Positions 2,189-28,115 of a stretch of 64,000 bases of DNA are shown one piece after another. Every line of letters begins with the position of its first letter. Position 1 is the stretch's first letter. The notes under the pieces are model-generated. The model was not told where the DNA came from. It saw only the letters and a list, made by a program, of their open reading frames with translations, and did no database searches. Position numbers and translations under genes: made by a program. Source of the DNA: Deltaproteobacteria bacterium (GTDB lineage Bacteria; Myxococcota; Myxococcia; Myxococcales; Anaeromyxobacteraceae); the NCBI GenBank assembly GCA_016214955.1, contig JACRMN010000015.1:1-64000 (forward strand). Reading direction: 5' to 3'.

Positions 2189-5182
2189 GTGCACCTTCGT
2201 GCCCCGGAGCAGCGCAGCGTGAACGACCAGCCTGGCGAGAACGCGCCCGAGCGGAACGAGCCTGCGGCGGGCGAGACCCATAGCCGGGCGCAGGACGTCT
2301 CGGCGCAGCTCTCGGCCCTGCTCGAGGAGCTGGCGCGTGCGCCCGACGCCGACCTGGCCAGCGCGTGGCAGAAGGGGCTCTCGGCCGGGGACGAGGTGGG
2401 CCGCTTCCGGCTGATGCGGGAGCTGGGGCGCGGCGGCTTCGGCGTGGTCTACGAGGCGGTGGACCGGGAGCTGGAGCGGGCGGTGGCCTTCAAGGCGGTG
2501 CGGGCCGGCTCGCGCTTCGCCCACCTCTCGGAGGACTTCCTGCGCCGCGAGGCGGCGGCCGTGGGCCGGCTCAACCACCCCGGCATCGTCACCCTCCACG
2601 ACATCGGCCAGGGGCCCACCGGCCCGTACCTCATCTTCGAGCTCCTGCGCGGCCAGACGCTCACCGAGCGGCTCAAGCAGGGGGTGCTGCCGGCGCGGGA
2701 GGCCCTGCGGATCGCCACCGAGATCAGCCGCGCGCTGGTCCACGCCCACCGGCTCGGCGTGGTGCACCGCGACCTCAAGCCCTCCAACGTGTTCCTGGCC
2801 GAGGACGGCGCGGTCAAGGTGCTCGACTTCGGCCTGGCCTTCCTCTTCGGCAGGGGCGGTCCGGCCAGCGCCGGCACCCCGGCCTACATGGCGCCGGAGC
2901 AGTGGCGCAGCGAGCCGGGCGACGAGCGGGTCGATCTCTTCGCCCTCGGCTGCCTGCTCTACCAGATGATCTGCGGCAAGCTCCCCTACCAGGTGACGCT
3001 GCGGGGCAGCGAGGCGCTCTCGGCCGGCGCGCCGCCGGCCCTGGCGGCGCCGGCGGTGCCCTCGGCGCTGCGCAGGCTGGTGACTCGCTGCCTCGAACCC
3101 GATGCCGCCAGCCGCCCCGCCAACTCCGCCACGGTGCTGCGCGAGCTCGAGGCCATCGCCGCCCGCATCGACGGCCGCAAGCGGCGGGGGCTCCTCCTCG
3201 GCGGCGTGGCGGCCACGGCGCTGCTCTCCGCCGGCGCGGTCTGGCTCCACGACCAGCTGGCCACCAGCGAGGGGCCGCGGGTGACGGTGGCGGTGGCCGA
3301 CGTGGCCAACCAGACGGGGGAGCCGGCCCTCGACGGCCTCTCCGGCCTGCTCATCACCTCGCTCGAGCAATCGCGCCGGCTCCATGTGCTCTCGCGCCTG
3401 CGGATGATGGACCTGGCGCGCCAGGCCGGGCGGCGCGACCCCTCGCGCATCGACGAGGTGGTGGGCCAGGAGATCGCCCGGCAGGCGCAGGCCCGGGCGC
3501 TGCTGCTCGCCTCGGTGCACAAGTTCGAGAGCGTCTTCGCGCTGGAGCTGCGGGCCATCGCCCCCGGGGCCCAGGACTACCTCTTCACGCTGCAGGAGAA
3601 GGCCCGCGGCCTGGCGGAGATCCCGGCGGCCATCGACAGGCTTTCCGAGGGGGCGCGGCGGGCGCTGGCCGAGCGGCGCGGCGACGTGCGGCTCGCCTCG
3701 GTGAAGGTGGCCGACGCGGTGACCGGCAGCCTCGACGCCTACGGCCTCTACCACCAGGGCGTCGCCTGCGTGGAGCACTTCGACCTCGCGGGCGGCTGGT
3801 TCGCGGGCAGCAACTGCGTGCGCCACTTCCGCGCCGCGGTGGAGAGGGACCCGGGCTTCGCGCTCGCCTGGTACGAGCTGGCGGTGGCCTACGAGGACGG
3901 CGCCCCCGACGCGGAGGCGCGGCAGGCCATCGAGCGGGCGCTGGCCGCGCAGGACCGCGCCCCGCCGCGCGAGCAGGCGCTCATCCGCGCCCGCAAGGCC
4001 GAGATCGACGGCCACGCCGATCAGGCGCTGGCCATCTACCGCGAGGTCCTGGAGAGCTTCCCCGACGACAAGCGCACCCTGTTTCGTGCCGCGGCGCTGG
4101 AGATCCGCCGCGCCCGGTTCGCCGAGGCCGTTCCCTGGCTGGAGCGGGCCCTGTTCCTCGACCCCACCCACGAGCAGGCGCTCGACCAGCTGGTGCTCGC
4201 GCTGGGCGTGCTGGGGCGCAAGGAGGATCTGGCGGCGCGCGTGCGGCAGTGGGAGGCGGTGCCGCCGGTGCCGGCCGTCCGCCACGCCCTGGTGCGGGCC
4301 CGCTTCTGGCTCGGCGACCGGGAGGGTGCCATCCAGGCCGCGCGGGCCGCGGTGGAGGCGGGCAGCGGCCCCACCGCCGAGGACGACCTGGTGGGCGCGC
4401 TGCAGGGTGTGGGCGCTTACCGCGAGGTGGAGACCAACCTGCTGCGGCGGCGCGGCGAAGGGCCGCTCACCTTCTACCAGTCGCTCCAGCTCCTGGGCGC
4501 GGTGCTGGCCCAGGGGCGCGTCCGCGAGGCTCGCCGGCTGGAGGCCGACCTGGCGGCGGGGACCGAACGCATGGTCGTGGAGGGCATGCGGACCATGGTC
4601 CGGGCCTGGCTCGGCAGCCCGGGGGAGGCGCTCGCCGCCGCGGAGCGGATCGCCGACCTCCAGAGCACGGGCGCCACCTACGCTGCCTTCGCGGCATGGG
4701 CGGGCGAGCTCGACGGTGCGGAGCGGCTGGCCCAGCGGCTGCCGTCGGGCTCCGATACCCGCCTCAAGGTGGACGCCATCGTGGCCCTCCGGCGCGGGCG
4801 GCTGGCCGAGGCGCGCGCGCTGCTCGAAGGGCTGGAAGAGCGCGACCCCTACGGCCACGTCTCGCACCTCCTGCCCTCCTTCCTCCTGGCCGAGGTTGCC
4901 GCCGCGTCCGGCGACGCCGCGGCAACGAAGCGGTGGGTGGTGCGCTACCACGCAACCTGGCCGCGTGGCCTGTGGCGGAGCTGGGCGTGGCCGCGGAGCC
5001 TCTACCTCCTCGCCGAGGCGCACGAGCGGCTGGGGGAGCGGGCCGAGGCGCTCGCGACTGTCGACCGGCTGCTCGATCTCTGGAAGGATGCCGATGGGGG
5101 CGCGCCGCTGCTGGCCGAGTCACGGAAGCTGCGCGCGCGCCTCTTGCTTGGCCTGCCCGCAGGGAGGGACCGGAGACCATGA
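2189..5182 (+). CDS. Membrane-anchored serine/threonine protein kinase with TPR-like sensor region
   Basis: This eukaryotic-type (Hanks) kinase has all core motifs: the glycine loop GRGGFGVVYE at about 80-89, Lys102 in VAFKAV, HRDLKPSN at 193-200, DFG at 213-215 and APE in PAYMAPEQ. One membrane segment follows at about 334-353. The remaining 640 residues are Ala/Leu-rich helical repeats of TPR character, presumably outside the cytoplasm or at the membrane face. GTG 2189 gives 997 residues. The GTG at 2219 has a better-placed GGAGC and may be the real start. The stop overlaps the next ATG (ATGA, 5179-5182), so the kinase is probably translationally coupled to the Lys-rich protein and the ATP-grasp ligase downstream. 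Confidence 0.9.
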   Translation: MHLRAPEQRSVNDQPGENAPERNEPAAGETHSRAQDVSAQLSALLEELARAPDADLASAWQKGLSAGDEVGRFRLMRELGRGGFGVVYEAVDRELERAVAFKAVRAGSRFAHLSEDFLRREAAAVGRLNHPGIVTLHDIGQGPTGPYLIFELLRGQTLTERLKQGVLPAREALRIATEISRALVHAHRLGVVHRDLKPSNVFLAEDGAVKVLDFGLAFLFGRGGPASAGTPAYMAPEQWRSEPGDERVDLFALGCLLYQMICGKLPYQVTLRGSEALSAGAPPALAAPAVPSALRRLVTRCLEPDAASRPANSATVLRELEAIAARIDGRKRRGLLLGGVAATALLSAGAVWLHDQLATSEGPRVTVAVADVANQTGEPALDGLSGLLITSLEQSRRLHVLSRLRMMDLARQAGRRDPSRIDEVVGQEIARQAQARALLLASVHKFESVFALELRAIAPGAQDYLFTLQEKARGLAEIPAAIDRLSEGARRALAERRGDVRLASVKVADAVTGSLDAYGLYHQGVACVEHFDLAGGWFAGSNCVRHFRAAVERDPGFALAWYELAVAYEDGAPDAEARQAIERALAAQDRAPPREQALIRARKAEIDGHADQALAIYREVLESFPDDKRTLFRAAALEIRRARFAEAVPWLERALFLDPTHEQALDQLVLALGVLGRKEDLAARVRQWEAVPPVPAVRHALVRARFWLGDREGAIQAARAAVEAGSGPTAEDDLVGALQGVGAYREVETNLLRRRGEGPLTFYQSLQLLGAVLAQGRVREARRLEADLAAGTERMVVEGMRTMVRAWLGSPGEALAAAERIADLQSTGATYAAFAAWAGELDGAERLAQRLPSGSDTRLKVDAIVALRRGRLAEARALLEGLEERDPYGHVSHLLPSFLLAEVAAASGDAAATKRWVVRYHATWPRGLWRSWAWPRSLYLLAEAHERLGERAEALATVDRLLDLWKDADGGAPLLAESRKLRARLLLGLPAGRDRRP

Positions 5183-5424
5183 CCGAGAACACGATGAAGA
5201 ACCCCGACGCGGACGACCCCAGGGTGCTCGACGGCCCCTCGCTGTTCACGCCCGCCGCCCAGCCGGCCCCGAAGAGGGCGGCCCCGCGGAAGAAACCGGT
5301 CAAGAAGGCCGGCAAGAAGGTGGGGAAAAAGAAGGCAGCCGCGAGGAAGGCCGGCAAGAAGGCGGCCGCGAAGAAGACCGCGCGGCGGCCGGCGAAGAAG
5401 AAGCCGGCGCGGCTGCGCCGGTAG
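5179..5424 (+). CDS. Small Lys/Ala-rich basic protein (histone H1-like tail)
   Basis: This 81-residue protein has two halves. The first 30 or so residues are acidic and polar (TENTMKNPDADDPRVLDGPS, then LFTPAAQPAP). The last 50 hold about 18 lysines in KKA and GKK repeats, like bacterial histone H1-like proteins that bind DNA non-specifically. The ATG overlaps the kinase stop, and GGAGACC precedes it. It lies directly before a small ORF and an ATP-grasp ligase of the graspetide maturase family. It could therefore be a DNA-binding protein, a kinase substrate (Ser/Thr in the N-terminal half), or a modified peptide. The Lys-rich tail has no acidic residues, so it is not a typical graspetide core. 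Confidence 0.8.
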   Translation: MTENTMKNPDADDPRVLDGPSLFTPAAQPAPKRAAPRKKPVKKAGKKVGKKKAAARKAGKKAAAKKTARRPAKKKPARLRR

Positions 5425-5429: not shown

Positions 5430-5702
5430 ATGGCCCGCGGGCGCTCCGGCCCGGTTCGCCGGCCTCGCCGGGGGGCGCTCCCGCCCGTTCCCTTCCTGCT
5501 GGCCACCGCCAGGCCGGCCGCCCCGGAAGCGCGCCAGGCCCTGGCCCGCCAGGCGCGGCTCCTGCGGCTGGCCGCAACCTGGCAGGCGCTGGCGCCGCTC
5601 GAGGAGGCGGCCTGGCGCGGTGGGCTCTCGGCCCGCGGCCTGGCGCGGCTGCAGCGGGCCAGGGTGGCCTACGCCCGGCTCGTCGCCGAGGTCGGCCGGT
5701 GA
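5430..5702 (+). CDS. Small Arg/Ala-rich protein of unknown function
   Basis: This 90-residue ORF begins 5 nt after the Lys-rich gene and ends in a GTGA overlap with the ATP-grasp gene (5699-5702), which argues that it is really translated. The N-terminus is very basic (ARGRSGPVRRPRRG), followed by PPVPFLLATARP and a Leu/Ala/Arg helical region. I do not recognise the family. Its place directly before a maturase-type ATP-grasp ligase makes it a possible substrate or partner, but it lacks an obvious Thr/Ser plus Asp/Glu core. No strong ribosome site precedes ATG 5430, so coupling to the upstream gene is likely. Confidence 0.6.
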   Translation: MARGRSGPVRRPRRGALPPVPFLLATARPAAPEARQALARQARLLRLAATWQALAPLEEAAWRGGLSARGLARLQRARVAYARLVAEVGR

Positions 5703-6637
5703 TCCTGCTGGTCTCGCACCGCGGCGACCCCCACCTCGGGCCCGTGCTGGCGGGGCTGCTGCGGCGCAGGCAGCGCACGGCGATCCTCGACACCGGCCGC
5801 TTCCCCACGCTGGGCCGCCTCGACCTCAGGCTTGGAGGCGCGGGGCTGGAGCGGCTCCGGGTGGCGGCGGGGCCGGGCACCTTCGAGGCCCGCGAGATCG
5901 CGGCGGTCTGGTGGTGGCGGCCCCTGCCCTGCGAGCCCGACCGCCGCATGCCCCTCGCCAGCCACCGCGAGGTGGCGAGGCTGGAAACGGCGGCGGCCCT
6001 GGGCGGCCTGCTGCGCTGCACCCGGGCACTGTGGGTGAACGAGCCGGCGGCGGCGCGCGAGGCCGAGCACAAGGTCTGGCAGCTCCGCCTGGCCCGGGAG
6101 TGCGGCCTGGCGGTGCCTCGCACCTGCGTCACCGGCCTCCCGGCCCAGGCGCGGGCCTTCCTGCGCGAGGTGGCGCCGGGGCGGGCGGTCTTCAAGGCGC
6201 TCGACGTCCGGCCCGAGACCTGGCGCGAGACCCGGCTGGTGGGCCCCGAGGAGCGCAGCCTCCTGCCGCTGCTCCGCCACGCGCCCGTGCTCTTCCAGGA
6301 GCACGTGCCCGGCGTCGACCTGCGGGTCACCTGCGTGGGCCGGCGGCTCTTCGCGGCCGAGATCGACGCGCGCCACACCTCCTCTCCGCACGACTACCGG
6401 CTGGCGCTGGGCCAGGCTCGGGTCCGGCCGGCCCGGCTACCGGCCGAGGTGCGGCGGGGGCTGCGAACGCTGCTCTCGCGGCTCGGGCTCCGCTACGGCG
6501 CGGTGGACCTGCGGCGCTCGGCGGACGGGGAGCACCTCTTCCTGGAGGTGAACCCCGCCGGCCAGTTCCACTTCGTGGAGCAGCGCACCGGCCAGCCCAT
6601 CGGCGAGGCGCTCTGCGACCTCCTGGCGAGCGGCTAG
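5699..6637 (+). CDS. MvdD-type ATP-grasp ligase (graspetide maturase family)
   Basis: The 312-residue protein opens with ILLVSHRGDPHL and LDTGRFPT, the N-terminal signature of the MvdC/MvdD ATP-grasp ribosomal-peptide ligases. It continues with VWWWRP, then the ATP-grasp core (KALDVRP, VLFQEHVPGVDLRVTCVG) and the Mg site in LEVNPAGQFHFVEQRTGQP. Family members use ATP to form ester or amide crosslinks between side chains of a precursor peptide. The start is GTG 5699 with GAGG 11 nt upstream, overlapping the previous stop. It closes the kinase operon and overlaps the converging FAD gene by 4 nt. The substrate is unknown; the two small upstream ORFs are candidates. Confidence 0.85.
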   Translation: MILLVSHRGDPHLGPVLAGLLRRRQRTAILDTGRFPTLGRLDLRLGGAGLERLRVAAGPGTFEAREIAAVWWWRPLPCEPDRRMPLASHREVARLETAAALGGLLRCTRALWVNEPAAAREAEHKVWQLRLARECGLAVPRTCVTGLPAQARAFLREVAPGRAVFKALDVRPETWRETRLVGPEERSLLPLLRHAPVLFQEHVPGVDLRVTCVGRRLFAAEIDARHTSSPHDYRLALGQARVRPARLPAEVRRGLRTLLSRLGLRYGAVDLRRSADGEHLFLEVNPAGQFHFVEQRTGQPIGEALCDLLASG

Positions 6638-7743
6638 CCCACCGCCCAGCTCACCAGCCGCGAGAGGACGCGCGGGTGGCGCCCGGCCGCCTCCAGCACC
6701 CGGCGCCGCGCCTCGGGTCGGCGCGCCAGGCCGAGCACGAAGCGGGCGGCGGCGGCGTACTTGCGCCAGCGCCGCCCCTGGGCCCTGTCGAAGGGCAGGA
6801 GCGCCTTCCTCGTCGCGCCCTGGGCCAGCGCCTCGGGGAGGATGGCGCCGAGGTCGAGGGCCGACTCCAGCGCCATGGAGATGCCTTCGCCGGTGATGGC
6901 GTCCACGTAGCCGGCAGCGTCCCCCACCAGCACCAGGCGGTCGCGGGTGCGGGCGGTGGATTCGCGGCCGAAGGGGCCGGCGCCGGCCGGCGCCGAGTCG
7001 AAGGCCGCGCCCCCGAGCCGCGCCCGCACCGCCGGGAACAGCGAGAGGAGCTGGCCGAAGGGGGCGCGGCAGGCCTCCTCGCAGAGGAAGGCCACGCCGA
7101 CTCGCTGGCGGCCGGCCGGCGTCACGTAGGCCTCGACCCCGTCGGCGAAGTGGACCTCGACGGCGTCGGTCCAGGGGCGCAGGGCGTAGTGGCGCCGCAG
7201 ACCGAAGCGCTCCTCGCCGGAGAGCGGCCGGTCGAGCCCCTCTCGCACGCGGATGGGCGAGAGGAGGCCGTCGGCGGCCACCAGGAGCCGGGCGCGCTCG
7301 ATGGCGGAGGGCGTGCCCACCTCCACGCCCTTCGGTCCCCGGCGGTGCGAGACCACCGGCGTGCGCTCTCGCACCTCGGCGCCCGCCGCGCGAGCCCGGC
7401 CGAGCAGCGCCTGCGAGAGCGCGGTGCGGCGCACGCCCAGCCCGCCCTCCCCGGCGAAGCGGGCCTCGGCGGTGGTGCCCTCCTCGTCGATCCAGCGGAT
7501 GGCGCGGATGGGCGCCTGGTCGTCGGCCGGCACCAGCCGCAGGGCGCCGAGCGCCTCCAGCGCCCGCACGCCGCCGGGCAGGAGCCCCTCGCCGCAGGCC
7601 TTGTCGGCGGGGAGCGTGCCCCGCTCCAGCACCAGCACGTCGAGGCCGCGGGAGGCTGCGGCGATGGCCACGGCCAGGCCGGCCGGGCCACCGCCGGCGA
7701 CCACCAGGTCGCGGATGCGCGGCTCGAGGGCGACCCTAGCCAT
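6634..7743 (-). CDS. FAD-dependent oxidoreductase of the geranylgeranyl reductase / aromatic hydroxylase fold
   Basis: This 369-residue flavoprotein has the Rossmann FAD motif VAGGGPAGLAVAIAAASRG at its N-terminus and the second FAD motif GDAAGYVDAITGEGISMALES near residue 280. These place it in the FixC / geranylgeranyl-reductase-like and group A hydroxylase superfamily. It is the last gene of the type III PKS operon, and its ATG overlaps the AMP-ligase stop by 8 nt. In Streptomyces srsABC a flavoprotein hydroxylase turns methylated alkylresorcinols into alkyl-benzoquinones; by position this protein could do the same. Reduction of an isoprenoid or fatty chain is the alternative. Confidence 0.85.
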   Translation of the reverse strand: MARVALEPRIRDLVVAGGGPAGLAVAIAAASRGLDVLVLERGTLPADKACGEGLLPGGVRALEALGALRLVPADDQAPIRAIRWIDEEGTTAEARFAGEGGLGVRRTALSQALLGRARAAGAEVRERTPVVSHRRGPKGVEVGTPSAIERARLLVAADGLLSPIRVREGLDRPLSGEERFGLRRHYALRPWTDAVEVHFADGVEAYVTPAGRQRVGVAFLCEEACRAPFGQLLSLFPAVRARLGGAAFDSAPAGAGPFGRESTARTRDRLVLVGDAAGYVDAITGEGISMALESALDLGAILPEALAQGATRKALLPFDRAQGRRWRKYAAAARFVLGLARRPEARRRVLEAAGRHPRVLSRLVSWAVG

Positions 7744-9496
7744 GCGGCTCCCCGGTGCGGAGCCGCCGCAGCACCAGGGCCGAGCGGGCGGCACGGCCGA
7801 GGAGCGCCAGCGCCCCGGGGCGCGACGGCGGCAGGAGCGCTCCGGCCTCGAGCCGGCGGCGGGCCTCGCCGCGGCGAAGCTTGCCGCTGGAGGTGCGCGG
7901 CAGGGTGCCGGGCGCCAGGATGCGCACCTCGGCCGGCGCCACGCCGGTGCGCTCGGTCACCGCGCGGCGCACCTCCTCGGCGAGGTCGGCCTCCTCCTCG
8001 CCCCCGGCGCCGGCGGCCCGCTCCGCCAGGATCCAGAGCCCCTCCTCGCCGCTCGGACCAGGCTGCCCGATGGCCACGGCGCAGCCCGGCCGCAGCCCGG
8101 CGACGCCGGCCAGGCAGCCCTCGAACTCCTCGGGGGCGTGGTTGGCGCCGCGCACCACCACCAGGTCCTTGGCCCGGCCGTGGACGTAGAGCTCGCCGTC
8201 CTGCTCGAAGCCCAGGTCACCGGTGTCGAGCCAGCCGCCCCGAAGGGCGGCGGCGGTGGCCGCCTGCTGCCCCAGGTACTCGCGCATGAGCGACGGGGAG
8301 CGCACGTGGATGCGCCCCACCCGCCCCGGCGGCAACGGTTCGCCCCGCGCTCCCCGCACCTCGACCTCCACGCCCGGCACCGGCACACCCACCGAGGCGA
8401 TCTCGCGCTCGCCGGGCGCGAGCAGCCCCTCGGCCGCGAGCCGCCGGGCGTCGGCCCGGACGGTGCGCAGCGGCCAGCGCGGCGGGCAGAAGCTGACTGC
8501 CAGCGCCGCCTCGGAGAGACCGTACACCGGGAGCAGGCCTCGCGGATCGAGGCCGTGGGGGGCGAGCCGATCGGCGAAGCGGCGCAGCACCAGCGGCGAG
8601 ACCGGCTCGGCGCCGTCGAGGGCGATGCGCCAGGAGGAGAGGTCGAGCCCATCGAGGTCGGCGGCCGGCGCCCGCTCGGCCGCGTAGGAGTAGCCGAAGC
8701 TGGGGGCGGCCGAGATGGTGCCGCGGTGGCGGGAGATGGCGCGGAGCCAGAGAGAGGGGCGCGCCAGGAAGTGCTCGGGCGGCAGGAGCACCAGCGGGCC
8801 GGGGTAGGAGAGCGCGCCCAGCAGGCAGCCGATGAGCCCCATGTCGTGGTAGAGCGGCAGCCAAGAGACCAGCACGTCGGCGGAGGTGGGGCGCACCAGC
8901 GCCACCAGCGACGCGATCTGCGCGGTGAGGGCCCGGTGGGTGAGGGCCACGGGCTTCGGGTCGACGGTGGAGCCCGAGGAGAACTGCACCAGGGCGAGGT
9001 CCTCGGGGCGCACGGCCCGTGGCGGCGCCGGCGGACCGCCGAGGAGGCGCTCGGCGGCGAGCCAGCCCAGGGGCGGCCGGGCCCGGGCCACGGCCTCGCC
9101 GAGCAGGCGGGCCGAGGCGCCGCCCGAGACCACGAGCCGAGCCCCCGAGACCTCGATCATGCGGGCGGTGGCCGCGGTCCACTCCTCCAGCCGGCCGAGC
9201 CGCACGGGCGGGTAGAGCGGCACCGGTACCGCGCCAAGGACGGCGGCGCCGAGGAAGGCGTCGAGGAAGGCGGGCTCGGTGCGGAGGACGATGGCCACCT
9301 GGTCGCCGGGCCGGACTCCGGCGCGAGAGAGGGCGCCGGCCGCCTCGCCGGCGCGGCGGGCCACCTCGGCCCAGCCCAGCGCCGTCTCGCGCTCGCGCAG
9401 GTCCACGAAGGTGACGCCCGAGCCGTGGCCCGCGGCGGCGCGGAGCGCGTCGGCCACGGTGGCGTGGAGCGGCGGGGGTGCAGGGGGGCCTCTCAT
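7736..9496 (-). CDS. Fatty-acyl-AMP ligase (adenylate-forming enzyme)
   Basis: The protein (586 residues) activates a carboxylic acid as acyl-AMP and hands it to a carrier. Evidence is the phosphate-binding loop QFSSGSTVDPKPVALTH at about 165-182, YGLSEAAL, WLDTGDLG and GKLRRGEARR near the C-terminus. The QFSSGST loop and overall shape match FAAL-type ligases that load acyl carrier proteins rather than CoA. An ACP gene lies just upstream, which supports fatty starter loading for the type III PKS. I use ATG 9496. A GTG at 9520 would add eight residues and has no better ribosome site. The gene is separated from the ACP gene by 133 bp that contain a palindrome. Confidence 0.85.
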   Translation of the reverse strand: MRGPPAPPPLHATVADALRAAAGHGSGVTFVDLRERETALGWAEVARRAGEAAGALSRAGVRPGDQVAIVLRTEPAFLDAFLGAAVLGAVPVPLYPPVRLGRLEEWTAATARMIEVSGARLVVSGGASARLLGEAVARARPPLGWLAAERLLGGPPAPPRAVRPEDLALVQFSSGSTVDPKPVALTHRALTAQIASLVALVRPTSADVLVSWLPLYHDMGLIGCLLGALSYPGPLVLLPPEHFLARPSLWLRAISRHRGTISAAPSFGYSYAAERAPAADLDGLDLSSWRIALDGAEPVSPLVLRRFADRLAPHGLDPRGLLPVYGLSEAALAVSFCPPRWPLRTVRADARRLAAEGLLAPGEREIASVGVPVPGVEVEVRGARGEPLPPGRVGRIHVRSPSLMREYLGQQAATAAALRGGWLDTGDLGFEQDGELYVHGRAKDLVVVRGANHAPEEFEGCLAGVAGLRPGCAVAIGQPGPSGEEGLWILAERAAGAGGEEEADLAEEVRRAVTERTGVAPAEVRILAPGTLPRTSSGKLRRGEARRRLEAGALLPPSRPGALALLGRAARSALVLRRLRTGEPHG

Positions 9497-9538
9497 GGTG
9501 CGCTCGCGCCCCGCCGGCACCCTACCCAGAGTAATCTT

Positions 9539-9555
9539 GACGCGCCTGGCGCGTC
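9539..9555. promoter_or_regulatory. 17-bp palindrome inside the type III PKS operon
   Basis: GACGCGCC-T-GGCGCGTC is a perfect palindrome in the only sizeable gap (9497-9629) of this minus-strand operon, about 43 bp before the AMP-ligase start. An outer 8-bp inverted repeat (AGAGTAAT at 9528-9535, ATTACTCT at 9599-9606) brackets it. The right half continues into CGGTCGGG and resembles the ACTCTCGGACGGG unit of the repeats near 360 and 440. It may be an operator with an internal promoter, or a REP-like remnant. Confidence 0.45.
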
Positions 9556-9629
9556 CGGCGGGTGCGTCATGGGCCTGATTCCGGCACGTTGGGACCTCAT
9601 TACTCTCGGTCGGGATGACGCGCTCCCGG

Positions 9630-9893
9630 TCACGTCCCCTCCCCCCGCCCCTCCGCCTCCACCCGCCGGACGACGAGCCGCGCCAGGTCGGCCAGGCTCC
9701 TGGTGCCGGCGGCGTCGTCGGGCGTGAGCACGATCCGGTACCGGTCCTCCACCGCCGTCACCAGCGCCAGGAGCTGCAGCGAGTCGAGCTGCGCCGCCAG
9801 CTCCTCCTCGTCGCCGAAGGGCGCCTGCCGGGAGCCCTGCTCCCGCGCCAGCCGCCGGATCTCGGCCGCCACCTCCGCCTCGTGCCCGTTCAC
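9630..9893 (-). CDS. Acyl carrier protein
   Basis: This 87-residue acidic protein has the carrier fold with DSLQLLALV, where the serine takes the 4'-phosphopantetheine arm. A strong AGGG site sits before the GTG start at 9893, and the start overlaps the methyltransferase stop (GTGA). Its position between the methyltransferase and the fatty-acyl-AMP ligase suggests that it carries the activated starter chain to the type III PKS. It is shorter and more divergent than the fatty-acid synthase ACP, which is expected for a dedicated carrier. Confidence 0.85.
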   Translation of the reverse strand: MNGHEAEVAAEIRRLAREQGSRQAPFGDEEELAAQLDSLQLLALVTAVEDRYRIVLTPDDAAGTRSLADLARLVVRRVEAEGRGEGT

Positions 9894-10453
9894 GCGCGCC
9901 CTCCCGGCAAGAGCCTCGGCCGGCCGGCGAAGGCCGCCTCCCAGGCCGGCCCCAGCGCCCGCTCCTCGGCCCGGATCCGCACCCGGAGGAGCGCGGCGTT
10001 GGCCAGGGAGAAGAGCAGCGCCGTCCTCCACGAGCCCCAGGCGAGCGGCAGGCAGGCCACCTCCAGCACCACCGCCAGGTAGTTGGGGTGGCGCAGCCAG
10101 CGGTAGGGACCCCCGGTGACCGGGGCGGCCCCCGGCACCACCACCACCCGCGTGCTCCAGCGCTCGCCCAGCGCCGCCACCGCCCACCAGCGAAGCCCCT
10201 GCGCCGCTGCCGCGCCGGCCAGCGCCGCCAGCGCTGCCGCCGGCGGCACCGCAGGGAAGGCCAGGGCCTCGGCGGCGCAGCAGAGGAGGAAGGTCGTGTG
10301 CATCACCACCATCACCGGGTAGTGGCCGCGCCCGTGCTCCACCCCGCCCCGGGCCAGCGCCCGCCGGGCGTTGCGCTCCGAGAGCCGGAGCTCCAGCCCC
10401 CGCTCCAGGGCCACGGCGGCGAGCAAGGCCAGGTACGGGTGCAGCAGGGTCAT
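9890..10453 (-). CDS. Membrane methyltransferase of the isoprenylcysteine carboxyl methyltransferase family
   Basis: The 187-residue protein is mostly hydrophobic with about four or five membrane segments. It ends with the family's cofactor motif GGPYRWLRHPNYLAVVLE, followed by RIRAEERAL. ICMT-like proteins (BpsB of Bacillus, SrsB of Streptomyces) are regularly encoded next to type III PKS genes and O-methylate alkylpyrones or alkylresorcinols at the membrane. Here it starts 6 nt after the PKS stop and overlaps the ACP gene, so the same role is likely. The substrate is inferred from context only. Confidence 0.85.
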   Translation of the reverse strand: MTLLHPYLALLAAVALERGLELRLSERNARRALARGGVEHGRGHYPVMVVMHTTFLLCCAAEALAFPAVPPAAALAALAGAAAAQGLRWWAVAALGERWSTRVVVVPGAAPVTGGPYRWLRHPNYLAVVLEVACLPLAWGSWRTALLFSLANAALLRVRIRAEERALGPAWEAAFAGRPRLLPGGRA

Positions 10454-10459
10454 GGCCGG

Positions 10460-11521
10460 TCACCAGCGCAGCAGCAGGAGCTCCGCGCCGAAGCCCGGCC
10501 CCATGGCGGCGAGGAGCCCGTAGTCCCCCTCGCGGGCTTCGCCCGAATCGAGCAGGTCGCCGAGGACGAAGAGCACCGAGGCCGAGGAGAGGTTGCCGAC
10601 CTCGGCGAGCGAGCGGCGCGAGCGGGCCAGCGCCTCCTCGGGGAGCGCCAGCGCCTCCCCGAAGGCGGAGAGCACCTTGGGGCCGCCGGTGTGGGCCACC
10701 CAGTGGCGCACGTCGCGCCGCGCCAGGCCGTGGGCGCCGAGGAAGGCGTCCACGTCGGCGGCCACGTTGCCGCGGATCACCTCCGGCACCCGGCCCGAGA
10801 GCACCACCCTGAACCCGGTGTCGACGAAGTCCCAGCCCATGACCCACTCGGTGTCGCGCCACAGCACCGAGCGCGTGGCCAGCACGCGCGGCCCCGGGCC
10901 GGGCCGGCCGGCGCCGCAGAGCACCACCGCCGCGGCGCCGTCGCCGAAGAGACCCGAGGCGACCGCGTTGGCGATCGAGCCGTCGTCCCGCTGCAGCGTC
11001 AGCGAGCAGAGCTCGACCGAGAGCATCACCGCGGCGTCGCCCGGGAAGGCCCGCAGCGCGTCGGCGGCCCGCGCCGTGCCGCCCGCCCCGGCGGCGCAGC
11101 CGAGCCCGAAGATGGGCGTTCGCCGGAGCTCGTGGGGCATGCCGAGCCGGTTGGCGATGCGGGCCTCCAGCGAGGGCACCGAGAGCCCCGTGCTGGTGAC
11201 GGAGTAGAAGTGGCCCACGTCGGCCGGGGCCAGGCCCGCCTGCCCGAGCGCCTTGCGCACCGCCGCCTCTCCCAGGCTCGTCGCGGCGCCGATCCAGGCG
11301 TCGTTGCTCTTCTGCAGGCCGTCGAGCCCGGGGTAGGCCTCGAGCGGCAAGGCCAGGTTTCGCCCCTTCACTCCGACCGCGCGGTGCAGCTCGGCCAGCC
11401 GCTCGGGGTTGTGGTGCTTCCGGGCCCAGTAGGAGGTGAGGGCCGCCAGCAGGGTCTCCTGGTCGTACCAGTGCTCCGGGAGCACCCGGACGACGGCGGC
11501 GATGCGTGGATCGTGCGCCAC
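10460..11521 (-). CDS. Type III polyketide synthase (chalcone/stilbene synthase family)
   Basis: At 353 residues this has the usual type III PKS length. The catalytic triad is visible: Cys142 in FGLGCAAGAGG, His277 in WVAHTGGPK and Asn310 in GNLSSASV. Bacterial members extend fatty-acyl starters with malonyl-CoA to alkylpyrones or alkylresorcinols. It is the first gene of a five-gene minus-strand operon with a methyltransferase, a carrier protein, a fatty-acyl-AMP ligase and a flavoenzyme. That set predicts a methylated, possibly oxidised phenolic lipid. The ATG at 11521 lies 103 bp downstream of the histidine kinase gene on the same strand. Confidence 0.93.
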   Translation of the reverse strand: MAHDPRIAAVVRVLPEHWYDQETLLAALTSYWARKHHNPERLAELHRAVGVKGRNLALPLEAYPGLDGLQKSNDAWIGAATSLGEAAVRKALGQAGLAPADVGHFYSVTSTGLSVPSLEARIANRLGMPHELRRTPIFGLGCAAGAGGTARAADALRAFPGDAAVMLSVELCSLTLQRDDGSIANAVASGLFGDGAAAVVLCGAGRPGPGPRVLATRSVLWRDTEWVMGWDFVDTGFRVVLSGRVPEVIRGNVAADVDAFLGAHGLARRDVRHWVAHTGGPKVLSAFGEALALPEEALARSRRSLAEVGNLSSASVLFVLGDLLDSGEAREGDYGLLAAMGPGFGAELLLLRW

Positions 11522-11624: not shown

Positions 11625-13670
11625 TCAGGCGCGCGCCGCCGGCAAGGGCTGGGCCTGTGGGAGCGAGAAGGTGAAGGCCGACCCCTGGCCCGGGATCGAC
11701 TCGGCCCAGATGCGGCCGCCGTGGGCCTCCACCAGCAGCCGGGCGATGAAGAGACCGAGGCCCAGGCCGTCGCCGCTGCGCGTCGAGTGGCCGCGGTAGA
11801 AGCGCTCGAAGATGTGAGGCAGGTCCTCGGCGGCCACGCCGGTCCCCTGGTCGCGGACCGTCAGCAGCACCTCGCCGCCGATCGACGAGGCCCGCACCCG
11901 AACGTCGGCGCCCGCCGGCGAGTGGGAGAGGGCGTTGGCCAGCAGGTTGAGGAGCACGCGGTCGAGCCGCGTGGGGTCGGCCCAGCAGAGCGGCAGGTCG
12001 GCGGGAAGCTCCAGCTTCACGCGCGCCGGATCGACGGCGCCGCCCGCCACCGAGAGCAGGTTGGGCAGCCAGGCCCCGAGGTCGAGGGGCTGGCAGGAGA
12101 GCCGCAGCCGGCCGCTCTCCATGCGCACCGCGTCCACCAGGTCGCGGATCATCACGCTCATCTGGCGCGCCGCCGCCACCACCGCCGCCGAGGCGCGCTG
12201 CTCCTTCTCGCGCCCCTCGGCGCCGTCGGCCAGGCGCTGCAGCCGTTCGCCCTGCAGCAGGATGATCTGCAGCGGGTTGCGCAGGTCGTGGGAGACGGCG
12301 CGGAGCAGGTCCTCGAGCTGCGACTGCAGCTCCTGCAGCGCCGAGACGTCGGCCGCCGCCGCCACCGCCCCCGTGAGCTCCCCGTCGGCGCGGATGGGGG
12401 CGGCCGCCACCGAGATCCAGGTGGCCTTCTTCCCCGGCGGCTGGATCTCCACCACCTGGCCGCGCACCGTCTCGCCACGCAGGGCTCGCAGGACCGGGTG
12501 CTCCTCCTGCGCCAGCGGCTTCCCCTCGGTGGTGCGCGGCTTCAGCGTCCGCCAGCGCTCCAGCACCGAGCCGCCCTGCGGGTCGGCCCCGACGGCGAAG
12601 AGCTGCTGCGCCATGGCGTTCTGGCGGGTCACCTCGCCCTCGGCCGAGAGCACCACGATGGCCTCGGGCACGGCGGCGATGGCCGCCTCCAGCTCGGCCC
12701 GGCTCTTGGCCTCGCGCTCGGTGGTCTCGGCCAGCCGCCCGATGGTCTCGGCCAGCTCCCCCTCGATGCGTCCGCGGAGCTGCTCCAGGTAGGCGTTGGC
12801 GGCGGCCAGCTCCCGCGAGCTCTGGGCCACCTTGCGGTAGGGGTCGAGGATGGCGGCGGCGAAGAGGGTGTCGAAGATGAGGTAGCCGGAGACCGCGGCG
12901 TAGAGGTGGGCGGCGAGGCCCAGGAGATCGGCCTGGCCCTGCGAGAGACCGTAGGCCACCTGGCCGATGGCCACCATGCCCAGCGCCTGGGCGGTGCGCA
13001 GGTAGAGCGGCTCGCCGGTCTGGCGGAAGCGCTGGGTGTGGACGGCGATGCCGGCCACGCTGAGGAGCGCCAGGAACACCTCCAGCGCCGCCCGGCCGCG
13101 GGTGCCGCCGCCGTCGGGTCCGATGAAGGAGCCGGGGGTGACGAGGTGCGGCTCGGCCGCCAGCAGGATGCCCACCATCAGCACGCTCACGGCCGCCAGC
13201 GGCCCGCGGGACAGGAGCGGGTGGCTGGACGAGCGCGGCAGGAAGGCGGCGAGCAGGAGCGTCGCCGCCATCCAGCCCCGGGCCATGTGCCACCAGAAGA
13301 CGCCGTGCTCCCAGCTCGTGGCGCCAACGATCCCGGGCATGCCCGGCACGGCCAGCAGGTGCAGCGCCTCCAGCGCCGCCAGGCCCAGGCACGAGGCGCC
13401 GACGAAGCGGCCGCGCGGCTCCTCCAGGCCGCGCGAGGCGGCGTACCACTGGACGGCGAAGGTGGCGCCGCCCATCACCACCAGGAAGAGGAGTAGGAGC
13501 TCGTGCAGGGCCCAGAACAGCGCGTTGCCCAGCAGGCTCGGCGGCAGGAGCGCGACGAACAGGACCGGCAGCGACGCCATCGCCAGCCCCGCCAGGGCGT
13601 GACGGGCCTTCAGACGGCCGCGCGGACCGAGTCCGGCCGGGCCGGGTGCGCTCTCGTTCTCCGAAGCCAT
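11625..13670 (-). CDS. Membrane sensor histidine kinase with PAS domain
   Basis: The 681-residue protein has an N-terminal block of about eight membrane helices to roughly residue 260, like MASE-type sensory domains. A coiled-coil linker and one PAS domain (AIAAVPEAIVVLSAEGEV and on) follow, then a HisKA domain with His461 in AVSHDLRNPLQ. The HATPase_c domain carries NLLANALSHS, DQGTGVA and GDGLGLGLFIARLL. It should autophosphorylate and pass phosphate to a response regulator, but none is adjacent. It lies upstream of the type III PKS operon on the same strand, so it might sense envelope or lipid state; this is inference. Confidence 0.9.
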   Translation of the reverse strand: MASENESAPGPAGLGPRGRLKARHALAGLAMASLPVLFVALLPPSLLGNALFWALHELLLLFLVVMGGATFAVQWYAASRGLEEPRGRFVGASCLGLAALEALHLLAVPGMPGIVGATSWEHGVFWWHMARGWMAATLLLAAFLPRSSSHPLLSRGPLAAVSVLMVGILLAAEPHLVTPGSFIGPDGGGTRGRAALEVFLALLSVAGIAVHTQRFRQTGEPLYLRTAQALGMVAIGQVAYGLSQGQADLLGLAAHLYAAVSGYLIFDTLFAAAILDPYRKVAQSSRELAAANAYLEQLRGRIEGELAETIGRLAETTEREAKSRAELEAAIAAVPEAIVVLSAEGEVTRQNAMAQQLFAVGADPQGGSVLERWRTLKPRTTEGKPLAQEEHPVLRALRGETVRGQVVEIQPPGKKATWISVAAAPIRADGELTGAVAAAADVSALQELQSQLEDLLRAVSHDLRNPLQIILLQGERLQRLADGAEGREKEQRASAAVVAAARQMSVMIRDLVDAVRMESGRLRLSCQPLDLGAWLPNLLSVAGGAVDPARVKLELPADLPLCWADPTRLDRVLLNLLANALSHSPAGADVRVRASSIGGEVLLTVRDQGTGVAAEDLPHIFERFYRGHSTRSGDGLGLGLFIARLLVEAHGGRIWAESIPGQGSAFTFSLPQAQPLPAARA

Positions 13671-13831
13671 CCCCGCGGCTCCCCCTCGGCTGCGCAGGTG
13701 CCCCCAAGGAGTAGCACGCCGCCCCGGATGGGAGCGCGCCGGTTTGCCGCTGGGACAGGCGTGCAGGCGGAGGTCGGCACGGGCCCCGGCACCCCGCTTG
13801 CCAGGTCGGAACGCGGCCTTACGTTGTGTCC

Positions 13832-16453
<2,622 letters not shown>

Positions 16454-20293: not shown

Positions 20294-21340
20294 ATGGCGA
20301 ACGACGAGGCGATCCTGGCGCAGCTCGGGGAGGCGGCGGTCCGCGGCGTCCGGCCCGAGAAGGCCCAGGCGGCGCTGGCCCAGGTGCCGCGCCTGCCGGA
20401 GCAGCTCCTGGCGCTGGAGGGCGAGCTCACCCGGGCCACCGGCGACGCCGAGGCCACCCTGCAGGCCGCCGCCCGGCACCTGGTGGCCGCCGGCGGCAAG
20501 CGCATCCGCCCGCTGGTCACGCTGCTGGGCTGCGGGGCCTGCGGCGGCGACATGGCCCGGGCCGTCCCCTTCGGCGTGGCCGCCGAGCTCACCCACTCGG
20601 CCACCCTCCTGCACGACGACGTGCTCGACGGCGGCGAGATGCGCCGCGGCCAGCCGGCCTCGCGGGTCATCTGGGGCAACAACGTCTCGGTGCTGGCCGG
20701 CGACTGGCTCCTCACCCGGGCCCTGGAGATCGTGGCCGGGCACGAGGCCCGCGCCGACGCGCTGGCGCCGCTCCTCGCCACCATGCGGCGGCTCGTCGAG
20801 GGCGAGGTGAAGCAGCTCTCGCTCCGCGGCGGCTTCCACGCCACCGAGGAGGACTACTTCGCCGTCATCCGCGGCAAGACCGCCTCGCTCTTCGGCTGGG
20901 CGGCGGCGGCCGGCGCCTGGGCCGCCGGCGTGCGCGGCGAGGTGCCGGCGGCGCTCTCCGCCTTCGGCGAGGGCGTGGGCACCGCCTTCCAGCTGGTGGA
21001 CGACGCCCTCGACTACGCCGCCGACCCGGGGCTGCTCGGCAAGCGGCTCGGCACCGACCTCCTCGAGGGCAAGGCCACCCTGCCGCTCATCCGCGCGCTC
21101 CGGAGCGAACCCGGCCTGCGCGACCGGCTCGCCGCGCTGGTGGAGGGCCGGGCCGAGGCCGAGGCGGTGGCCCCGGCGGTGCTGGAGGCAGTGCAGCGGA
21201 GCGGCGGCGTCGAGGCGGCGCGGGCCCTGGCCCGCGAGCACACCCGGGCCGCCATGGCCGCGCTGCAGCGCGTGCCCGACGGCCCGCACCGCAAGGCGCT
21301 GGCCGAGGCGGCGGTGAGCCTCACCGAGCGGGCGTTCTAG
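20294..21340 (+). CDS. Polyprenyl diphosphate synthase (trans, long chain)
   Basis: The enzyme builds the isoprenoid side chain of menaquinone from IPP and an allylic starter. The 348 residues contain GGKRIRP, the first Asp-rich motif DDVLD at 108-112 and the second DDALD at 236-240, with GKATLPLIRAL after it. The small residues before the first motif (AELTHSATLLH) fit a long-chain product such as a hepta- to nonaprenyl chain; the exact length cannot be read. It lies next to the menaquinone cluster, which supports the quinone role. Confidence 0.9.
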   Translation: MANDEAILAQLGEAAVRGVRPEKAQAALAQVPRLPEQLLALEGELTRATGDAEATLQAAARHLVAAGGKRIRPLVTLLGCGACGGDMARAVPFGVAAELTHSATLLHDDVLDGGEMRRGQPASRVIWGNNVSVLAGDWLLTRALEIVAGHEARADALAPLLATMRRLVEGEVKQLSLRGGFHATEEDYFAVIRGKTASLFGWAAAAGAWAAGVRGEVPAALSAFGEGVGTAFQLVDDALDYAADPGLLGKRLGTDLLEGKATLPLIRALRSEPGLRDRLAALVEGRAEAEAVAPAVLEAVQRSGGVEAARALAREHTRAAMAALQRVPDGPHRKALAEAAVSLTERAF

Positions 21341-21352
21341 CCCGCCCTCCCC

Positions 21353-22195
21353 CTACGCGTCCTGGTACTGCGCCTTCACCGGCGGGATGAGCTTGCGCTC
21401 CACCGACTCGGCCAGGAACAGGTCCACCGCCTGGCGGCCGCGGGGGCCGAGGTCGCGGGTCCACTCGTTGACGTACATGCCCACGAAGGTGTCGGCCCGC
21501 TTGCGGTCGAGGCCCCGGGCGTAGGTCATGGCGTGGTCGAGCGCCTGCTCGCGGTGGTCGAGCCCGTAGACGATGCTCTCCTTCAGCACCCGGGCCAGCG
21601 TGCGGCGCAGCGCGTCGGGCAGCTCCTTCTTCACGGCGTTCATGCCCAGCGGCAGCGGCAGGCCGGTGCGGGCCTTCCAGGTCTTGCCCAGGTCCTCCAC
21701 CACCGTGAGCCCCTCCTCGGCGGCGGTGAGCTGGCCCTCGTGGATCACCAGGCCCGCCGCAACCTCGCCGCGCTTGGCGGCCTCGCCCACCTGCTTGAAG
21801 TCCATGATCACCGGCTGGTGATCGGGAAGCCGCAGCGAGAGGGCCAGGGCGGCGCTGGTCCACTTGCCGGGGATGGCGATGCGCTTGCCGGCCAGGTCCG
21901 CGACCTTGCGCACCGGCGAGCCCTGCGGCACCACGATGGTGGGGCCGTAGCCGTCGCCGAACGAGGCGCCGGAGTCGAGGAGCAGGTATTTGTCGTGGAG
22001 GTAGGCGTAGGCGTGCACCGAGAGGGCGGTGATCTCGTAGCGACCCTCCAGGGCGGCCCGGTTGAGGGTCTCGATGTCGGAGAGCTCGTGGACGAAGGTG
22101 AGCCCCTCGGCGCGCACGGCGCCGGAGGCCAGGCCGTAGAACATGAAGGCGTCGTCGGAGTCGGGGCTGTGGGCCACGCGGATGGTGGTCGGCAT
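21353..22195 (-). CDS. mqnD: 1,4-dihydroxy-6-naphthoate synthase MqnD
   Basis: MqnD converts cyclic dehypoxanthine futalosine to 1,4-dihydroxy-6-naphthoate in the futalosine menaquinone pathway. The 280 residues have the expected N-terminus (IRVAHSPDSDDAFMFYGL), the DIETLNR segment, YLLLDSGASFGDGYGP and MDFKQVGEA, the periplasmic-binding-protein-like fold of MqnA/MqnD. It converges with the polyprenyl synthase gene and diverges from the ubiD-to-regulator operon. A TTCAACG inverted repeat lies in the 73-bp gap between the two mqn transcription units. Confidence 0.95.
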   Translation of the reverse strand: MPTTIRVAHSPDSDDAFMFYGLASGAVRAEGLTFVHELSDIETLNRAALEGRYEITALSVHAYAYLHDKYLLLDSGASFGDGYGPTIVVPQGSPVRKVADLAGKRIAIPGKWTSAALALSLRLPDHQPVIMDFKQVGEAAKRGEVAAGLVIHEGQLTAAEEGLTVVEDLGKTWKARTGLPLPLGMNAVKKELPDALRRTLARVLKESIVYGLDHREQALDHAMTYARGLDRKRADTFVGMYVNEWTRDLGPRGRQAVDLFLAESVERKLIPPVKAQYQDA

Positions 22196-22213
22196 GGGGG
22201 GTACTCATATCCC

Positions 22214-22229
22214 TTCAACGAACGTTGAA
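22214..22229. promoter_or_regulatory. Inverted repeat between mqnD and the ubiD-mqn operon
   Basis: TTCAACG-AA-CGTTGAA is a perfect 7-bp inverted repeat in the short region shared by the divergent mqnD (start 22195) and ubiD (start 22269) genes. Its size and symmetry suit a dimeric regulator that would control both units. No TetR-type gene is nearby. The GbsR/MarR-like regulator at the end of the operon (30202) is a candidate ligand, by inference. Confidence 0.6.
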
Positions 22230-22268
22230 ACAAGCGGGGCGAAGGAGTAGAGATCCGGCCCTCTCGCC

Positions 22269-23783
22269 ATGGCCTACCGATCGCTCCGGCAGTTCCTCGA
22301 CCGCCTCGAGCAGGCCGGCGAGCTCGTGCGGGTGAAGGAGCCCGTCGACACCCACCTGGAGATGGCGGCCCTCGCCGACCGCGCCGCCAAGCAGGGCGGC
22401 CCGGCCCTGCTGTTCGAGCAGCCCAGCTCCGGCCGCCTCCCGGTGGCCATGAACCTCTTCGGCACCCGGCGCCGCACCAGCTGGGCCCTCTCCTGCGACG
22501 ACTTCGAGGAGCACGCCGCCGAGCTGCGCTCGCTCCTCAGGATGGCCCCGCCGCAGGGGCTCTGGGAGAAGCTGAAGATGCTCCCGCGGCTCGGCAAGCT
22601 CGCCACGCTGACGCCGAAGCACGTCTCCGGCGGCCCGGTGCACGAGATCGTGGACCGCGAGCCCGATCTCTCGGCCCTCCCGGTGCTCACCACCTGGCCC
22701 CACGACGCCGGCCCCTTCATCACCCTGCCGCAGGTGGTGACCCGCGACCCGGAGAGCGGGCTGCGCAACGTGGGCATGTACCGGATCCAGGTGCTGGGCC
22801 CGCGCCGCCTGGCCATGCACTGGCAGCTCCACAAGACCGCCACCGCCCACTTCCGCGGCTACCAGAAGCGCGGCGAGAAGATGCCGGTGGCCATCGCCCT
22901 GGGCGGCGACCCGGCGCTCACCTGGAGCGCCTCGGCGCCGCTGCCGCCGGGCGTGGACGAGTACCTCTTCGCCGGCTTCCTGCGGAAGGAAGGGGTGCCG
23001 CTGACGAAGGGCCTCACCGTGGATCTCGAGTACCCGGCCGAGGCCGACCTGGTCATCGAGGGGTGGGTGGACCCGGCCGCCGCGCTGGTGCGCGAGGGGC
23101 CCTTCGGCGACCACACCGGCTACTACTCGCTGGCCGACATGTACCCGGCGCTCGAGGTCACCGCGGTGTGCCGGCGCGCCGACGCCATCTACCCGGCCAC
23201 GGTGGTGGGCCCGCCGCCCGTCGAGGACCAGTGGATGGGCAAGGCCACCGAGCGGCTCTTCCTGCCCATGCTGCAGATGGTCTTCCCCGAGGTGGTGGAC
23301 ATGTCCTTCCCGGTGGAGGGCGTCTTCCACAACCTCTGCTTCCTCTCCATCAAGAAGGAGTTCCCCGGCCACGCCAAGAAGCTCATGCACGGCATGTGGG
23401 GCTCGGGGCAGATGAGCAACACCAAGACGCTGGTGGTCTTCGACGACGACGTGGACGTGCAGGACCACGCCCAGTGCGCCTGGCGCGCCTTCGCCAACGT
23501 GGACGTGAAGCGCGACCTGGTCATCGTGGACGGCCCGGTGGACGTGCTCGACCACGCCTCCACCGCCTTCGCCCTGGGCGGCAAGATCGGCGTGGACGCC
23601 ACCCGCAAGCTGCCCGAGGAGGGCGGCCGCGAGTGGCCCGAGCCCTGCGTCCACCCGGCCGGCGTGGTGGCCCGCATGGACGCGCTCTACCAGCGGCTCG
23701 TGCCCGGCGCGCCCCCGCCGCGCCGCATGAAGCTCGCCGAGCCGCCGGCCGCCGCCTGGAGCCCGAGGAAGGGAGCGCACTAG
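22269..23783 (+). CDS. UbiD-family decarboxylase for menaquinone synthesis
   Basis: This prenylated-FMN-dependent decarboxylase (504 residues) should remove the carboxyl group of the prenylated 6-naphthoate intermediate. It has the UbiD start (YRSLRQFLDRLEQAGELVRV), the MNLFGTRRR segment, GMYRIQVLGPRRLAMHWQ and EGPFGDHTGYYS with the catalytic acidic region. Its UbiX cofactor partner lies two genes downstream. It is the first gene of a long operon (ubiD-ubiE-ubiX-mqnE-mqnAC-deaminase-ubiA-regulator). GGGCGAAGGAG precedes the ATG at a slightly long distance. Confidence 0.92.
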   Translation: MAYRSLRQFLDRLEQAGELVRVKEPVDTHLEMAALADRAAKQGGPALLFEQPSSGRLPVAMNLFGTRRRTSWALSCDDFEEHAAELRSLLRMAPPQGLWEKLKMLPRLGKLATLTPKHVSGGPVHEIVDREPDLSALPVLTTWPHDAGPFITLPQVVTRDPESGLRNVGMYRIQVLGPRRLAMHWQLHKTATAHFRGYQKRGEKMPVAIALGGDPALTWSASAPLPPGVDEYLFAGFLRKEGVPLTKGLTVDLEYPAEADLVIEGWVDPAAALVREGPFGDHTGYYSLADMYPALEVTAVCRRADAIYPATVVGPPPVEDQWMGKATERLFLPMLQMVFPEVVDMSFPVEGVFHNLCFLSIKKEFPGHAKKLMHGMWGSGQMSNTKTLVVFDDDVDVQDHAQCAWRAFANVDVKRDLVIVDGPVDVLDHASTAFALGGKIGVDATRKLPEEGGREWPEPCVHPAGVVARMDALYQRLVPGAPPPRRMKLAEPPAAAWSPRKGAH

Positions 23784-24491
23784 ATGGGCCCGGTGCCGCT
23801 GCCCGGCGAGGGAGGACGCGCGCCCGCGGTGCGGGCCATGTTCGACCGCATCGCTCCCACCTACGACCTGCTCAACCGGGTGATGACCCTGCGGGTCGAT
23901 CAGCTCTGGCGCCGCAAGATGATCCGCGCGCTGGAGCTCCGCTCCGGCCAGGTGCTGCTCGACCTCTGCGCCGGCACCATGGACGTGGCCGCCGAGGCGC
24001 GGCGGCGCGTGCCCGGGCTCCGGGTGATCGGCGCCGACTTCTCGCTCCCCATGCTGGCCCGCGGCGCTGGCAAGACAGGGCTCCCCGCCGCCCAGGCCGA
24101 CGCCCTGGCCCTGCCCTTCGGCGGCGCCCGCTTCGACGCCGCCACCGTGGCCTTCGGGATGCGCAACCTCGACTCGCTGGCGCGGGGGCTCTCGGAGCTC
24201 GCCCGGGTGATCCGGCCCGGCGGCAAGCTCGGGGTGCTGGAGTTCTTCCGCTCCGAGTCGGCCGGCTCCCGCCTGGTCCACGGCGCCTACAACCGGCTGG
24301 CGCTGCCGGTGCTGGGCCGGGTGCTCTCGCCCGACCCCGAGGCCTACCGGTACCTGGTGGAGTCGATGGAGCGCTTCGCCTCGCGCCCCGAGTTCGAGGA
24401 GGCCTGCCGCCAGGCCGGCTTCTCCGCGGTGCGGGGCCAGACCCTCTTCCCCGGCGTCTGCGGGCTGGTGCTGGCGACGAGGCAGGCATGA
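23784..24491 (+). CDS. ubiE: Demethylmenaquinone methyltransferase (UbiE/MenG)
   Basis: The 235-residue SAM methyltransferase adds the C-methyl group in the last step of menaquinone synthesis. FDRIAPTYDLLNRVMTLRVD is the family N-terminus, LDLCAGTMDVA is the SAM motif I, and GMRNLDSLARGL and PGGKLGVLEFFR are motifs II and III. Its ATG directly abuts the ubiD stop (TAGATG), and its TGA overlaps the ubiX ATG by 4 nt. Confidence 0.94.
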   Translation: MGPVPLPGEGGRAPAVRAMFDRIAPTYDLLNRVMTLRVDQLWRRKMIRALELRSGQVLLDLCAGTMDVAAEARRRVPGLRVIGADFSLPMLARGAGKTGLPAAQADALALPFGGARFDAATVAFGMRNLDSLARGLSELARVIRPGGKLGVLEFFRSESAGSRLVHGAYNRLALPVLGRVLSPDPEAYRYLVESMERFASRPEFEEACRQAGFSAVRGQTLFPGVCGLVLATRQA

Positions 24492-25078: not shown

Positions 25079-25081
25079 AGC

Positions 25082-26233: not shown

Positions 26234-26243
26234 GGAGCACGCC

Positions 26244-28112: not shown

Positions 28113-28115
28113 CCG

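Follow-up and report, generated by a model that had tools for sequence, protein, structure and literature searches.

What supplies the starter unit of a type III polyketide synthase (PKS) that is encoded together with its own acyl carrier protein (ACP) and an acid-activating ligase? This question is raised by a five-gene cluster in the window, i.e., the whole 64,000-nucleotide stretch analysed here (positions 1 to 64,000 of contig JACRMN010000015.1, assembly GCA_016214955.1), from an Anaeromyxobacteraceae bacterium whose 5.3-Mb genome, of about 75% GC, is spread over 30 contigs. A sequence-only reading of the window had described an operon of PKS, methyltransferase (MT), ACP, fatty acyl-AMP ligase (FAAL) and FAD enzyme. 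We confirm all five as real genes, which lie collinear on the minus strand within 6634-11521 in the order PKS, MT, ACP, FAAL and FAD enzyme (Table 1), and find that their identities match Pfam and NCBIfam families. The cluster is very probably the counterpart, in Anaeromyxobacteraceae, of the Myxococcus xanthus ftp cluster, with a proposed FAAL/ACP-fed pathway to fatty phenols or pyrones. It is not new in kind; what is fresh is the comparison of PKSs with and without the loading pair, together with a residue signature at the mouth of their coenzyme A (CoA) tunnel.

A type III PKS and its loading pair

Alignment with chalcone synthase (CHS) places PKS residues C142, H277 and N310 at CHS C164, H303 and N336, and this triad, with both CHS domains, makes the enzyme a type III PKS. 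Its W230 aligns with CHS G256, and all four residues are invariant in 84/84 related PKSs. The nearest named relatives are Myxococcales and Anaeromyxobacter records among the matches listed.

The best solved match of the ligase is the E. coli FAAL 3pbk (4.4e-83). Two hallmarks distinguish the protein from the 15 further ANL proteins compared in this genome (15 of its 19 other AMP-binding matches, as L166 did not pass the motif filter and L182-L184 are incomplete). First, 58 residues separate the YGLSEA motif from the next shared block, vs 36-47 in the other proteins, marking the FAAL insertion. Second, EcFAAL has a FAAL-specific helix (PMC8460268), to which a PPEHFLARP stretch of the ligase aligns, and this helix region is absent from the 15 other proteins. 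The fatty acyl-AMP ligase model is also the best NCBIfam match, although its 411 bits fall under the 600 cut-off. The alternative of a CoA ligase was rejected on these hallmarks; judged by insertion, helix and closest sequences, the ligase is a FAAL. In the ACP, the D and S of the DSL motif are kept in 95% or more of 118 rows (duplicate loci included), and the host genome holds one match to an AcpS-family phosphopantetheinyl transferase. The added loading pair of ACP and ligase that the sequence-only reading had claimed is supported.

The ACP gene overlaps the 3' end of the MT gene, and the FAD gene, which probably starts at ATG 7743, overlaps the FAAL stop. For the FAAL, ATG 9496 is the probable start rather than GTG 9520, because the corresponding codon is the start in the nearest relative and 9497-9520 borders the repeat listed in Table 1.

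Table 1. Positions in the window of the cluster genes and two adjoining features.
Feature	Position	Strand	Details
Type III PKS	10460-11521	-	353 aa; Pfam Chal_sti_synt_C 5.1e-18, Chal_sti_synt_N 6.2e-15; catalytic triad; chalcone synthase mapping
ICMT-family methyltransferase (MT)	9890-10453	-	187 aa; PF04140 8.7e-27
Acyl carrier protein (ACP)	9630-9893	-	87 aa; PF00550 1.9e-5; DSL phosphopantetheine serine
Fatty acyl-AMP ligase (FAAL), probable start	7736-9496	-	586 aa from ATG 9496; ORF opens 9520; AMP-binding 5.6e-61
FAD-dependent oxidoreductase, geranylgeranyl-reductase/group-A monooxygenase-like	6634-7743	-	369 aa; FAD_binding_3 (PF01494) 2.2e-16
Palindromic MITE-like repeat	9521-9627 (edges approximate)		between ACP and FAAL; outside core cluster
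MASE3 sensor histidine kinase	11625-13670	-	MASE3, HisKA and HATPase_c domains

From these gene families we infer every reaction of the pathway, as well as its chain length, ring type and function in the cell. The FAAL would adenylate a long-chain fatty acid and load it onto the dedicated ACP, from which the PKS would take the acyl chain onto Cys142 and extend it with malonyl, possibly methylmalonyl, units. Closure of the chain would give an alkylresorcylic acid, a resorcinol or a pyrone, which the ICMT-type enzyme may methylate and the FAD enzyme may hydroxylate, perhaps to an alkylquinone.

The known system closest to this scheme is the M. xanthus ftp cluster (FtpA; Hayashi et al. 2011, ChemBioChem 12:2166), represented here by the title of that paper and by papers citing it. 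These connect FtpA with alkylresorcylic acid, with a FAAL and with quinone formation (PMC11837247 and PMC5006271 among them), describe a DZF1 cluster of stilbene synthase, methyltransferase, AMP-synthetase and monooxygenase (PMC5006271), and list alkylresorcylic acid with C18:0 and in vitro data in a review table on FAALs (PMC11837247). The order PKS, MT, ACP, FAAL and FAD enzyme is identical in Myxococcus and Corallococcus loci, with all five genes in L064, L072 and L074, although their PKSs are 59-62% identical to that of the window among the matches listed. The lipidic phenol or pyrone that had been predicted as the product is supported.

Co-variation of the PKS with its loading pair

Genome mining for the five-gene order, as the sequence-only reading had suggested, recovers it in many related genomes, and the order is therefore far beyond chance. 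A full-length PKS match occurs in 47/60 related genomes, and in 42 of these 47 the ACP and FAAL follow the PKS, either with the MT in between (34) or without it (8). The other five comprise three genomes that show just the PKS and MT (in G014, the contig is short), one with an ACP at the contig end, and G006, in which the PKS stands alone on one contig and MT, ACP, FAAL and FAD gene lie together on another (L155, L156). A separate search found an FAD homologue in 42/60 genomes; FAD counts within the 47-genome layout tally are incomplete, many loci being short. A type III PKS taking its starter from a dedicated ACP had been called uncommon. This fails for the lineage, considering the pair in 42/47 genomes and the M. 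xanthus cluster published in 2011 (see above). Beyond the family, a PKS match at 1e-60 is found in 127/195 genomes of the phylum, and relatives occur in Acidobacteriota, Rokuibacteriota, Pseudomonadota and others among the matches listed.

Among close relatives, ACP and FAAL are kept or lost as a unit. In 81 loci among the matches listed (the window and 80 named loci), 53 have both genes, 27 neither (in one of these, L070, the contig ends directly after the PKS) and one the ACP only, its contig ending 1,018 bases on. The pair needs at least seven changes on a 77-row tree (L050, L070, L083, L103, L105, L107 and L130 left out). A clade with a plain PKS-MT-FAD layout (L082, L083, L092) sits among pair-bearing clades, with forks open; the same pair-less layout is found in L185-L188.

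We then compared PKSs with and without the pair, starting from 135 PKS rows that scored 440 or more with the hidden Markov model and whose state was clear; the score threshold set aside distant loci such as L195, L206 and L208. Thinning at 95% identity left 111 rows, and removal of L155 (whose remaining genes are on another contig, as noted above) left 110, i.e., 80 with the pair and 30 without. In an earlier comparison of PKSs with and without the pair, the columns that best separated the two groups were 36, 37, 52, 226, 29 and 44. Across eight independent contrasts in the 110 rows, column 44 ranked top (0.85), followed by 36 (0.70). The best 20-residue segment scored 0.369; for 200 simulated traits with about as many changes the mean was 0.204, and none (0/200) scored as high. 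The best single column reached P 0.03. In a held-out test, with residue sets defined on one acidobacterial clade, columns 44 and 36 again came first over seven other contrasts (5/7 same, 0 opposite; region vs rest, p 0.004). The control traits MT presence and FAD presence gave no comparable peak. Hence, PKS residues 26-52, at the aligned mouth of the CoA tunnel, co-vary with the loading pair, which is a correlation.

Column 44 holds R or K in 5/80 PKSs with the pair vs 22/30 without. It aligns with CHS Arg58, and column 41 with CHS Lys55, both of which we take to be CoA-phosphate binding residues; a literature search of open-licence papers returned nothing relevant on CoA-phosphate binding by these residues and no earlier report of the signature. 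Read by eye from printed alignments, the residue matching column 44 is Arg in Pks11, CylI, THNS-like 1u0m and Steely1. We tentatively propose that PKSs encoded next to an ACP-FAAL pair are a class specialised for their donor: segment 26-52 and position 226 would be adapted to a starter carried by an ACP, and would adapt again on loss of the pair. Such a class would be marked by His36, an aromatic residue or His at 37, Arg41, and Gln, Asp or Glu at 44. Since malonyl-CoA remains the expected extender, CoA must have access to the PKS site in any case.

Two observations weigh against this proposal. In column 41, pair-bearing PKSs have R in 80/80 cases and pair-less ones L, V or M in 19/30; the basic residue might therefore have moved rather than vanished. 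Furthermore, CylI has Arg at the equivalent of 44 though the steps of a FAAL, an ACP and a type I PKS precede its own (PMC11837247). It is also quite possible, if short of probable, that the signature reflects shared ancestry or generally fast evolution of region 26-52 rather than adaptation to an ACP donor. A single acidobacterial clade supplies many of the pair-less loci, the basic residue seems to have changed position instead of disappearing, and it was in a subset of the same data that the signature columns were first noticed. The contrast tree, built without the tested columns, is a quick one of which all branches were used, making it weaker as a tree; an independent-pairs test on strongly supported branches has just two pairs, putting significance out of reach. 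Against ancestry as the explanation stand the segment score, which no simulated trait reached on the same tree, the held-out contrasts, which still put 44 and 36 first, and the absence of such a peak for MT and FAD presence.

Ring type, tailoring and choice of donor

The ring type of the product bears on a second alternative, namely that the product is chiefly an alkylpyrone of the alkylpyrone-407/393 type and the FAD enzyme a reductase or a minor player. A cluster annotated for this alkylpyrone (BGC0001831; Hug et al. 2019) shares with the window a type III PKS, is conserved in Myxococcia (PMC12766979), and has a C18:0 FAAL substrate listed in the FAAL review (PMC11837247). The excerpt of PMC12766979 lists it as not conserved in Anaeromyxobacter, and it is maybe not the locus studied here. 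The closest solved structure to the PKS, Pks11 (4jao), is likewise labelled an alpha-pyrone enzyme. On the other hand, a Trp at the position of ArsB W281 has been tied to resorcinol formation (PMC6274091, PMC5916927). We place W230 at this site from published numbering rather than from alignment to ArsB, because PMC5916927 numbers that Trp 230 in MMAR_2474 and gives it as conserved in PKS11. As Pks11 is nonetheless labelled a pyrone enzyme, this Trp by itself is not decisive for the ring type. Nevertheless, the invariance of W230 and the tie of M. xanthus FtpA to alkylresorcylic acid argue against a chiefly pyrone product, which we consider rather unlikely.

The FAD enzyme enters the same argument. 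Its best curated family is TIGR02032, the geranylgeranyl reductase group, at 127.6 bits (under the 158.8 cut-off), which would fit the pyrone-type alternative. Its model (predicted local distance difference test score 93.9) has fold matches, at 17-23% identity, to flavin halogenases, 3-hydroxybenzoate 6-hydroxylase and the geranylgeranyl-reductase-like 3oz2, and its DGLLSPIR stretch holds the DG motif of group-A hydroxylases. Flavin-dependent halogenases are marked by a WxWxIP motif; its absence from the translated sequence led us to reject a halogenase, despite the fold matches. Ring hydroxylation is our first choice of function, preferred over reduction.

The sequence-only reading had presented the order as an extension of the SrsABC layout, and the plain PKS-MT-FAD arrangement does occur in the pair-less relatives L082 and L092. 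The srsABC layout of Streptomyces griseus is closer to that clade than to the window, where ACP and FAAL stand between the MT and FAD genes. To our knowledge, srsABC has no ACP or FAAL. Like the window, it combines a type III PKS with a hydroxylase, and its alkylresorcinol is oxidised to a quinone (PMC10896814), srsC being a stand-alone hydroxylase (PMC8086630). The hidABC hierridin and planctomycetal operons also share a type III PKS, a methyltransferase and an FAD oxidoreductase with the window, but have the PKS last and, in the excerpt of PMC10896814, no ACP-FAAL reported. The proposed feeding route itself resembles that of the Azotobacter ArsA-ArsB/ArsC system, in which a type III PKS is fed from an ACP domain (PMC6274091), although there the ACP lies within a fatty acid synthase and is not a stand-alone protein loaded by a FAAL.

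Several points count against a starter coming solely from the ACP, and against a uniform methylated product. FtpA is reported to use long-chain acyl-CoA starters, with both malonyl- and methylmalonyl-CoA (PMC5916927), which comes close to what the sequence-only reading had named as evidence against itself, i.e., equally good use of acyl-CoA without the ACP. The ACP-fed route is thus plausible without being exclusive, and the PKS may profit from the ACP but not depend on it. The distant type III PKS loci L195, L206 and L208 have a FAAL with no ACP detected, and no product data were found for this genus. Moreover, the prediction of a methylated product does not extend to the cluster in general: in a genus that is probably Anaeromyxobacter, all nine genomes have the PKS, whereas eight, searched whole, have no MT match at E 0.001 (G023, one of the nine, being 66% complete), and only G022 keeps one. 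The MT is dispensable, and since it can be absent, methylation is not general. Finally, that ligase and ACP merely serve general activation, with acyl-ACP as a pool while the PKS draws acyl-CoA in the cell, is improbable: the acyl-CoA use of FtpA and the pair-less PKS-MT-FAD relatives favour it, but ACP and FAAL are retained or lost jointly beside the PKS, and PKS residues change with the pair over eight contrasts.

Surroundings of the cluster and implications

The palindromic repeat between ACP and FAAL (~105 bp, terminal motif TACCCAGAGTAATC) has four copies in the host genome; elsewhere, short partial matches alone were found, in 3/24 relatives searched. In the nearest relative, L154, the spacer is absent and the two genes overlap instead. 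Directly upstream of the PKS, on the same strand, lies the MASE3 kinase, a possible regulator of the cluster, with a PKS-adjacent homologue in several relatives. It stands beside the cluster in fewer family loci than clpB (13826-16453, plus strand), which is divergent from the kinase and adjoins the cluster in 21 fetched family loci (duplicate records included), making a recent acquisition of the cluster here unlikely.

At the other end, an ATP-grasp gene of the ribosomal-peptide maturase group (5699-6637, plus strand; GRASP_SAV_5884 1.7e-63, MvdC/MvdD-like, scores under curated cut-offs) is convergent with the FAD gene and overlaps its end; it was not found near the cluster in fetched relatives. 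Just upstream of it, a short Lys/Ala-rich, histone-H1-like stretch ends an ORF at 2365-5424 (plus strand). About 9 kb from the possibly quinone-making cluster, futalosine-type menaquinone genes occupy 20294-29339 (polyprenyl synthase, MqnA-like, UbiD, two radical SAM CofH/MqnC-like proteins and an amidohydrolase). At 48247-61668, an EutB ethanolamine ammonia-lyase is encoded close to an aldehyde dehydrogenase, a CoA transferase, a class III aminotransferase and an alcohol dehydrogenase.

The usual description of type III PKSs is that they are fed from CoA; here, a branch widespread in myxobacteria and acidobacteria retains a loading pair of its own. Its natural pair-less relatives make the donor choice of the PKS testable on close homologues, for which the residue signature is a concrete and cheap basis for a swap experiment, and the absence of the MT from most genomes of the probable Anaeromyxobacter genus predicts a chemical difference between genera. 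If the donor-specialised class is real, sequence would predict which type III PKSs are ACP-fed and which are CoA-fed.

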